Of a stretch of 64,000 nucleotides of DNA, positions 44,052 through 50,772 are shown piece by piece (position 1 is the stretch's first letter; each line of letters opens with the position of its first letter). The position numbers and the translations under genes were made by a program. The notes below the pieces were generated by a model. That model was not told the DNA's origin. It searched no databases and was given only the letters and a program-made list of their open reading frames with translations. The DNA is taken from NCBI GenBank assembly GCA_018052705.1, contig JAGPMW010000005.1, positions 1 through 64,000 of the forward strand, written 5' to 3'. Origin of the DNA: Selenomonas sp. Lineage in GTDB: Bacteria > Bacillota > Negativicutes > Selenomonadales > Selenomonadaceae.

Positions 44052-44318
44052 AATAAAATAAAGCTCCGTCCCAATAAAGGGACGAAGCTATAATTCGTGG
44101 TTCCACCCTGATTGCCATCCATCATCAATAGACGGCCACTCAGCTCTTGTTAACGGAAGAGAACTCCGTTCCAACTTACACACCGTTGTACGGCTTCAGC
44201 CAGACAGCTCCGAAGTGGTAGCTATAAGCACAATCTCAGGATACTCACACCAACATGCATCCTTCTCTTGGAGACGCTCACTTACAGTCATGTCTTCTTC
44301 AACGCTTTCGCTTGATAG
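44052..44318 (-). promoter_or_regulatory. T-box leader (threonine) upstream of thrS
   Basis: The T-box sequence AGGGTGGAACCACG is at 44109-44096, followed by a terminator (AGCTTCGTCCC/GGGACGGAGCT, 44062-44089, then TTTATTTT) that the T-box can open. In the 5' half, Stem I contains GCTACCACTT; the ACC at 44219-44217 is the likely specifier for tRNA-Thr. Uncharged tRNA-Thr would promote readthrough into thrS. Confidence 0.93.
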
Positions 44319-44362: not shown

Positions 44363-44674
44363 TTATTTTTCTGCCAGCTCGCGTCCTGTAGAACGCGTCA
44401 GGACCGGAACTTGAATGTTTTGTCCCGCATAAATGCCACTGCCATCAGGGGCCAGTCCATTTACATCAATAATTGCCTGCTGAAGCTCAGCAGCCTGCGT
44501 TTCATCAGCCGTGTAGCGATGGGCCAGACTCCAGACACTATCATCATGCTCAATAACCACGATATCAAAGTTGCTGCTGTGAAGATAGCTATTAGTCAAA
44601 TGGAACGGCATAGCCATCATCACGAATAAAACGCTAACAACACCTGCTATAAGTCTCTTCTTCCACTGTTTCAT
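44363..44674 (-). CDS. YneA-like membrane-anchored LysM protein (putative SOS division inhibitor)
   Basis: 103 residues: a basic start (KQWKKR), a hydrophobic segment (residues about 9-24), then a LysM-type domain (FDIVVIEHDDSVWSLAHRY..INGLAPDGSGIYAGQNIQVPVL, about 40-95). Size and layout match B. subtilis YneA, which halts division during the SOS response. The ATG at 44674 follows AGAGGTG with 8-nt spacing. A TTGCGG-17-TAGAAT promoter with a perfect GAAC-N4-GTTC LexA box at its start point lies upstream. Identity with YneA is inferred from layout and regulation, not from clear sequence match. Confidence 0.72.
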   Translation of the reverse strand: MKQWKKRLIAGVVSVLFVMMAMPFHLTNSYLHSSNFDIVVIEHDDSVWSLAHRYTADETQAAELQQAIIDVNGLAPDGSGIYAGQNIQVPVLTRSTGRELAEK

Positions 44675-44750
44675 CTTCACTGCACCTCTCAACTATTGTC
44701 AAAAAAACGATTGCATCTCAGTAAAACATCTTCACAAAAGTATGTTCTGT

Positions 44751-44816
44751 GAACTTTTGTTCTTATTCTAGCATAGAACAGATATTCCCGCAATAGTTAT
44801 AGCGAACATTTTTTCG
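44751..44816. promoter_or_regulatory. Cluster of three LexA-like SOS boxes in a divergent promoter
   Basis: GAACTTTTGTTC at 44751-44762 is a perfect GAAC-N4-GTTC box. GAACAGATATTC at 44776-44787 and GAACATTTTTTC at 44804-44815 each have one mismatch, the last flanked by C and G as in CGAAC..TTCG. The first overlaps the start of the minus promoter, the second its spacer, and the third lies just upstream of the plus -35. Confidence 0.7.
44765..44793 (-). promoter_or_regulatory. Promoter of the LysM protein gene
   Basis: TTGCGG (44793-44788), 17-nt spacer, TAGAAT (44770-44765), immediately upstream of the perfect LexA box. Confidence 0.6.
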
Positions 44817-44817
44817 C

Positions 44818-44846
44818 TTGTCGGATATTTTTCTCTTTGCTACAAT
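44818..44846 (+). promoter_or_regulatory. Promoter of the two small plus-strand genes
   Basis: TTGTCG at 44818-44823, 17-nt spacer, TACAAT at 44841-44846. A one-mismatch LexA box ends 2-3 bases before the -35. Confidence 0.6.
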
Positions 44847-44878
44847 GATAACAACAGTTAATAGAAAGGATGTCCCTT

Positions 44879-45139
44879 ATGCAGATTTACGGTGCAGTGA
44901 TTGTCGAACAGGGCATTACCTTCGCCATCGTTTCCGTACGACAATCGTCAACGCTCTACACAACACGTCTTGTTCAGACCCGTCAGGAATTATCGCAGTT
45001 CTTTCCCAATATGCCTATCATCCTTATGAGTCAGGACAGCAATGGTACCCCGCACTACTATGGACGCAAAGATATCGTTGCCTTCCTCAAAACCATCCGC
45101 GTTGATCAGATTCCATGGAAAATTTATCACATCTATTAA
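44879..45139 (+). CDS. Small unknown protein, putative SOS-regulated
   Basis: 86 residues: MQIYGAVIVEQGITFAIVSV, then RQSSTLYTTRLVQTRQELSQFFPNMPIILM and a terminal VDQIPWKIYHIY. Family not recognised; mixed alpha/beta, no signal or membrane segment. GAAAGGA precedes the ATG by 8 bases. It is divergent from the LysM gene and shares its LexA-box promoter region. In Bacillus the gene beside yneA is a resolvase-type yneB, which this is not. Confidence 0.65.
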   Translation: MQIYGAVIVEQGITFAIVSVRQSSTLYTTRLVQTRQELSQFFPNMPIILMSQDSNGTPHYYGRKDIVAFLKTIRVDQIPWKIYHIY

Positions 45140-45228
45140 AAAGGCGGATACCATTACTCCGTCTGGCACTGCCCTGCTCGAGAAATGGATGCTCCCCTGC
45201 ACTGGTTCCCAGCCGGGATGAGTTCACC

Positions 45229-45471
45229 ATGAAGCTTTATCTGATCAATGATGCACACGATCCATTGGTTCGTAAATTATTCCATGAAGAGATTGAGCGG
45301 CATCAGGAAAAACATCAGTATCTAAAGCTCCGTTGGCAGCAGCTTTTTCAGAGTGACGAATATCGCCGCCAGCATTACGGGCATGCCTTAATCCTCGAGC
45401 AGGCGATTCAGCGCGAGCAGCAGCGTCTCAACTGGCTCAGACACGAATATGAAAATCTCCCGGCGCAATAA
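45229..45471 (+). CDS. Small charged helical protein of unknown function
   Basis: 80 residues, rich in H, Q, R and E: MKLYLINDAHDPLVRKLFHEEIERHQEKHQYLKLRWQQLF then a second helix LEQAIQREQQRLNWLRHEYENL. Predicted two-helix hairpin. It starts 90 bases after the previous gene with a modest GGGATGAG site and ends at the bidirectional terminator, so it is probably in the same transcript as the 86-residue gene. No family recognised. In Bacillus the third gene of the yneA group is ynzC, also a small helical protein, but the sequences are not obviously related. Confidence 0.6.
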   Translation: MKLYLINDAHDPLVRKLFHEEIERHQEKHQYLKLRWQQLFQSDEYRRQHYGHALILEQAIQREQQRLNWLRHEYENLPAQ

Positions 45472-49614: not shown

Positions 49615-50772
49615 ATGATTTACGTCGGCATTGATATTGCCAAGCTCAATCACTTTGCTTCCGTTTTATCTTCTGATGGTAAAGTCCTCGTTGAGCCGTT
49701 CAAATTCACTAATGACAATGATGGCTTCTGTATGCTGCTCTCTGTCTTAGATCACTTCGACAAAGACAACCTCATCATTGGTCTTGAATCTACGGCTCAT
49801 TACGGCAATAACCTTGTTGAATTCCTTGTTCTTAGGCATTTTCATGTCAGTGTCCTCAACCCCATTCAGACTTCCTCTATGCGGAAGAACAGAATCCGTA
49901 AGACCAAGACGGATAAGGTTGACACTTCCATCATTGCCCAAACTCTTATGACCCAGCCCTACAGACTTTTCACGCAATATGACATTGATCTGCTGCACCT
50001 GAAAAATCTGGGCCGTTTCCGTCAAAAGCTCTTGAAGCAGCGTACACGCAATAAAATTATGCTGACTTCTTATCTGGATCAGGCATTCCCTGAACTCCAG
50101 TACTTCTTCAACGGAATCCATCATAAGTCTGTCTACGCTGTTCTAAAGGAGGCGCCTTCTCCGGAAAAGATAACTTCCATGCATATGACTCATCTGGCTC
50201 ATCTTCTTGCATCTGCTTCCAACGGCCATTTCAAGAAAGATAAGGCGCAAGAGTTAAGAGTTCTTGCACAGAAGTCTGTCGGTTCCAGCGACAGTTCTAT
50301 ATCTATTCAGATAACCCAGACCATTGAGCAGATCGAGTTACTGGATATTCAAATGAATGATGTCGAATCCAAAATCCAAACGATTCTTCTTGCTATGGAT
50401 TCAGTCATCACGACCATTCCTGGCATTAGTTATCTGGAAGCCGGAATGATTCTGGGTGAAATAGGAGATGTTCATCGCTTTGCTTCACCCCACAAACTGT
50501 TGGCCTTTGCCGGTCTTGATCCTTCCATACATCAGTCTGGAAATTTCAATGCCAGCCACACAAAAATGTCCAAGAGGGGTTCCAGATACCTCAGATTCGC
50601 GCTGATGTACGCTGCTCACAATGCTGTAAAGAATAATTCTGTATTTAAGCAGCTTTACGACAAGAAACGCGACAGTGGCTTAAACCACTATGGTGCCTTA
50701 GGACATTGCTCAGGCAAACTCGTTCGCATAATCTACAAAATGCTGACTGACAATGTCGCATTTAATCTGTAA
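49615..50772 (+). CDS. IS110-family DEDD transposase
   Basis: 385 residues. The N-terminal RuvC-like DEDD domain has D7 (GIDIAK), E58 ([12 protein letters not shown]), D100 and D103 ([11 protein letters not shown]). The C-terminal transposase-20 domain has the IS110 serine motif ([18 protein letters not shown]). No stop or frameshift, so it is probably active or recently so. GGGGAG precedes the ATG. Confidence 0.93.

Follow-up and report, generated by a model that had tools for sequence, protein, structure and literature searches.

An array of LexA-type boxes at the promoter of a YneA-like LysM gene located away from lexA in Selenomonas

The analysis of a 64,000-nt window of Selenomonas DNA, by which we mean the whole stretch studied, indicates that a small LysM protein encoded on its minus strand most likely represents YneA, the SOS division inhibitor, its gene having moved away from lexA, and we infer the function of the protein from comparative evidence. 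This identification is favored because LexA-type boxes are conserved at the promoters of its gene, because the protein co-occurs with LexA, because both are lost together within the genus, and because the yneA and lexA genes are divergent in outgroups.

Organization of the divergent locus

The features of the locus are given below with their coordinates in the window and, where it applies, their strand.

44075-44311, minus strand: T-box leader of thrS (Rfam RF00230, 92.8 bits; gathering threshold, 93)
44363-44674, minus strand: yneA-like gene, 103 aa, with an N-terminal membrane segment, a juxtamembrane N-x-Y-L motif and a LysM domain at residues 44-90
44751-44762: box 1, GAACTTTTGTTC, a perfect GAAC-N4-GTTC, just downstream of the yneA-like -10
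44765-44793, minus strand: yneA-like promoter, with -35 TTGCGG (44793-44788), a spacer of 17 and -10 TAGAAT (44770-44765)
44776-44787: box 2, GAACAGATATTC (minus strand, GAATATCTGTTC), one mismatch, between the yneA-like -35 and -10
44804-44815: box 3, GAACATTTTTTC (minus strand, GAAAAAATGTTC), one mismatch, upstream of the yneA-like -35
44818-44846, plus strand: promoter of the 86-aa gene, with -35 TTGTCG (44818-44823), a spacer of 17 and TACAAT
44879-45139, plus strand: 86-aa conserved protein (SP1), found in 46 of 61 family genomes; phrog_23950
45140-45471, plus strand: remnant of a PadR-family regulator, whose C-terminal half (PF10400) corresponds to the 80-aa ORF at 45229-45471

The three boxes are located between the divergent yneA-like and 86-aa genes, with 53 bp, start to start, separating the outer boxes 1 and 3. 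A first-pass annotation of this DNA had described three ORFs of 103, 86 and 80 aa, a perfect box overlapping the start of the LysM gene promoter, and two one-mismatch boxes within 55 bases, one of them beside the plus promoter. The ORFs exist as described, the two one-mismatch boxes were found at 44776 and 44804, and box 3 ends 2 bp upstream of the -35 of the 86-aa gene, outside the core plus promoter. The perfect box is also present, and only its placement had to be corrected, as it begins two bases past the -10 of the yneA-like promoter, while box 2 abuts the -35 within the spacer.

The LysM protein

The 103-aa protein has the architecture of YneA, a membrane segment followed by one LysM domain within about 100 residues. 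Its hydrophobic stretch, read from the sequence, spans residues 8-24, and its LysM domain scores 26 bits in Pfam, above the cut-off. Among NCBIfam models, that of YneA (NF010723) is the sole match at E < 0.001, with 40.2 bits, which is below the equivalog cut-off of 60; it is the top NCBIfam model in all six members tested (40-58 bits), and it gives 45-58 bits for relatives from other lineages of Negativicutes. Orthologues were found in 27 of the 61 sampled family genomes, and the alignment of 19 orthologues shows, besides the membrane segment and the LysM core, an N-x-Y-L motif that never varies. After a variable linker, A-x-K/R forms the C terminus of many orthologues (44363-44400 in the window), possibly a protease tag by analogy with those of other SOS division inhibitors.

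The two genes on the plus strand

The 46 family genomes that encode the 86-aa protein include LexA-less and YneA-less ones, and its identity across the sampled family genomes is 60-81%. The closest named relatives that it retrieved are Selenomonas (the S. ruminantium group and Selenomonas spp.). Querying the named genomes with the single YneA protein gave no match; named loci were obtained with the 86-aa protein as query. Of the named loci, 74 had sufficient upstream sequence, and among these boxes are found upstream of the 86-aa gene in 20 of the 21 that have a divergent yneA and in 1 of the 53 that do not, which means that the boxes belong to yneA and not to the 86-aa gene. The first-pass annotation had presented the 86- and 80-residue proteins as new SOS partners of the LysM protein and had suggested a search for their homologues near LexA boxes. 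For the 86-aa protein, that search found boxes only beside an adjacent yneA, apart from the single locus just mentioned, and the partnership is not sustained, since the protein persists in LexA-less genomes without boxes. The 86-aa gene is probably an old neighbour with its own promoter and not an SOS gene.

This protein matches the phage family phrog_23950, and it has relatives on 10 IMG/VR contigs, part of which may contain host DNA as well; those at L293-L301, on IMG/VR viral contigs, are 38-60% identical to it, and in L295 the gene directly follows an integrase gene. No matching phage record and no PDB sequence relative were found for it. Its predicted model has a pLDDT of 82, and the fold matches of this model to tRNA-splicing endonuclease subunits (best E 2.6e-3, TM < 0.5) were too weak for a function to be assigned.

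The 80-aa ORF is a truncated, frameshifted PadR remnant. It is homologous (48-65% identity) to the last 80 residues of longer frames, its ATG corresponds to an internal methionine, and the short piece that precedes it, KKADTITPSGTALLEKWM, matches PadR sequence in another frame. A complete regulator would join a winged helix and PF10400 in one frame; of these two domains the window retains PF10400 alone, and the frame is interrupted. Two Selenomonas genomes without LexA encode the PadR-family regulator intact, with 181 and 203 aa. No 80-aa ORF is present at the other yneA loci of the genus. Profile matches to GNAT and CntF were dismissed as noise. The proposal of an 80-aa SOS partner was thus abandoned, as what remains is the C-terminal half of a PadR regulator without its DNA-binding half.

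If all three genes formed one SOS module, LexA at box 3 would repress the plus promoter too, and YneA would have the 86-aa protein as its partner, possibly joined by the 80-aa one. The 2-bp distance between box 3 and the plus -35 agrees with such a module, as does the recurrence of the yneA/86-aa divergent pair, which is present in 12 of 27 family loci and in three other families. We nevertheless regard it as unlikely, given that the 86-aa gene is retained in genomes lacking LexA and in genomes lacking YneA, that the boxes follow yneA, that box 3 lies outside the core plus promoter, and that the 80-aa ORF is a PadR remnant. It would also be rather a long shot that the 86-aa protein is co-regulated through box 3 where the genes are paired, modulating YneA or checkpoint recovery, and has another role in SOS-less genomes.

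Association of yneA with LexA

The host genome encodes one full-length LexA (TIGR00498, 226 bits) and one RecA (TIGR02012, 574 bits). Full-length LexA is present in all 27 family genomes that have YneA; in the 34 that lack YneA, LexA is absent from 23 and present in 11, three of these with weaker full-length matches (Fisher test, 1.2e-8; kinship is ignored in this test and in the genus counts that follow). Within the genus, yneA is present in all nine genomes with LexA and absent from 12 of the 13 without it, the remaining one being an 82% complete genome. Therein, yneA, lexA, and the box of the recA promoter have been lost together, which may represent a single loss event. The Selenomonas subgroup lacking the three (G016, G043, G062, G066, G068, G069, G071, G073 and G074) carries a diverged recA, about 80-85% identical.

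The first-pass annotation had also suggested comparing the boxes with the organism's own recA, lexA, and uvrB promoters, and the outcome was mixed. The same type of box was found at recA, where GAACAATTGTTT lies between the -35 and -10; in that position, GAAC-N4-GTTT is present in 8 of 8 LexA-bearing genomes of the genus and in 0 of 10 without LexA, and the box also occurs in 7 class outgroups. The lexA promoters contain degenerate boxes; that of the organism is GAAAATATGTTT, with two mismatches, in a position where most of the genus has a one-mismatch box. The uvrB promoter of the organism has no box. Another sequence, GAACATAYATATGGTATAAT, is conserved across genera and overlaps the lexA -10 (L005:1371-1391 and other lexA promoters); it is not an N4 palindrome and is a possible variant operator.

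The organism's own lexA and uvrB promoters thus have no clean N4 palindrome, which would fit a scenario where a repressor other than LexA binds genuine boxes, the LysM protein being a general cell-wall protein with no tie to DNA damage. This is very improbable: the same box is present in recA promoters and is gone where the genus lacks lexA, none of the sampled family genomes that lack LexA yielded yneA, and this gene is divergent from lexA in outgroups.

Of the 17 loci from other families of Negativicutes, 9 show this last arrangement. It is seen at none of the 27 loci of the window's family, where yneA is never within 1.5 kb of lexA and instead has thrS nearby (13 of 27) or the 86-aa gene in divergent orientation (12 of 27). 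Divergence from lexA has been reported for Gram-positive SOS division inhibitors (PMC6851548), and in C. thermocellum lexA is divergent from a YneA-like gene (PMC8457756). Most simply, yneA would have left the vicinity of lexA and retained its operators, a direction of movement that we infer. In the window, yneA is just upstream of T-box-thrS and in the same direction, and the T-box leader has a perfect promoter, TTGACA-17-TATAAT, at 44352-44324. Farther along, a 385-aa ORF (49615-50772, plus strand) looks, from its sequence, like an IS110-type transposase.

The box arrays, the co-occurrence with LexA, the recA box, and the synteny of outgroups are comparative evidence that backs the initial proposal of the 103-residue LysM protein as the division inhibitor.

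Conservation and frequency of the boxes

At least one box is present in 25 of the 27 yneA promoters of the family, at least two in 21, and a perfect one in 11, whereas the corresponding values for 243 background windows are 7, 0, and 0. In other Negativicutes families, two or three boxes were found at all 17 yneA loci examined. The promoter layout, -35 and -10 included, is kept in the ten YneA-bearing genomes of the genus: all ten have the AAGAAC half-site of box 1 after the -10 (two with the full perfect box) and GAATNNNNGTTC in the place of box 2, and nine have an identical box 3.

Single sites carry little meaning, because the window contains 27 with at most one mismatch versus 19.6 expected. 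Despite this weak enrichment, it is hardly credible that an AT-rich intergenic region produced these boxes by chance, as the triple cluster, seen once in the window, did not arise in any of 40 dinucleotide shuffles of it, three or more boxes appear in 1 of 2000 shuffles of the 204-bp intergenic region alone, and the position of the boxes is conserved across genera and families.

The whole genome contains 13 perfect GAAC-N4-GTTC sites, only two of them, 44751 and C48:26566, in promoters; since most are within coding sequences, the bare pattern defines no regulon. The second promoter box (L017:2067-2078) is 28 bp upstream of a 193-aa ORF with no Pfam match, which is a candidate for a second SOS gene.

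Proposed mechanism and significance

Negativicutes are diderm Firmicutes. Since Bacillus is monoderm, the mechanism of its YneA is an extrapolation in this class. The minus-strand gene is very probably the Negativicutes orthologue of the SOS-induced division inhibitor yneA, and on this reading LexA would bind its promoter, DNA damage would induce it, and division would be arrested. In the undamaged cell, judging from their position, LexA would occupy boxes 1 and 2, and perhaps box 3, covering the gap between -35 and -10 and the start site and thereby blocking yneA transcription. Upon DNA damage, active RecA would promote the self-cleavage of LexA, and the YneA-like protein would be made. It would be anchored at the divisome by its membrane helix and bind septal peptidoglycan through the periplasmic LysM domain, halting septum synthesis until repair. 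Both parts, the membrane helix and the LysM domain, are present in the Selenomonas protein. In B. subtilis, the membrane helix of YneA binds FtsW, and the binding of its LysM domain to peptidoglycan is required for the septal block (PMC13396833).

We found no description of a LexA-controlled YneA in Negativicutes in the literature searched, and it apparently has not been described in this class so far. Our results indicate that a LexA-controlled YneA is widespread in Negativicutes, where it is probably ancestral, and they provide usable candidate LexA operators in a clade whose regulation is little known. With a subgroup in which lexA, yneA, and the recA box are all missing, the genus Selenomonas constitutes a natural deletion experiment, suited to testing the connection between SOS and division control among close relatives.

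Comparison with known systems

The 80-aa ORF matches the C-terminal domain of PadR-family regulators (PF03551 + PF10400), from which it differs in lacking the DNA-binding half and in its broken frame. By description, the YneA-like protein can be likened to ChiZ of Mycobacterium and SosA of Staphylococcus, small membrane SOS division inhibitors encoded beside lexA (PMC6851548), although SosA, unlike the Selenomonas protein, has no LysM domain. Clo1313_1450 of C. thermocellum (PMC8457756) is, likewise, a YneA-like LysM protein with a LexA site. Its gene and lexA diverge, an arrangement shared by several Negativicutes outgroups, whereas the yneA of the window's family is not beside lexA. Close parallels are found with the YneA proteins of B. 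subtilis and Listeria, which share with the Selenomonas protein one membrane segment and a LysM domain in about 100 aa, GAAC-N4-GTTC boxes in the promoter, and co-occurrence with LexA. The Selenomonas protein differs from them in scoring below the NCBIfam cut-off, in its diderm host, in the three-box array that precedes its gene, and in the location of this gene between the 86-aa gene and T-box-thrS instead of beside lexA.
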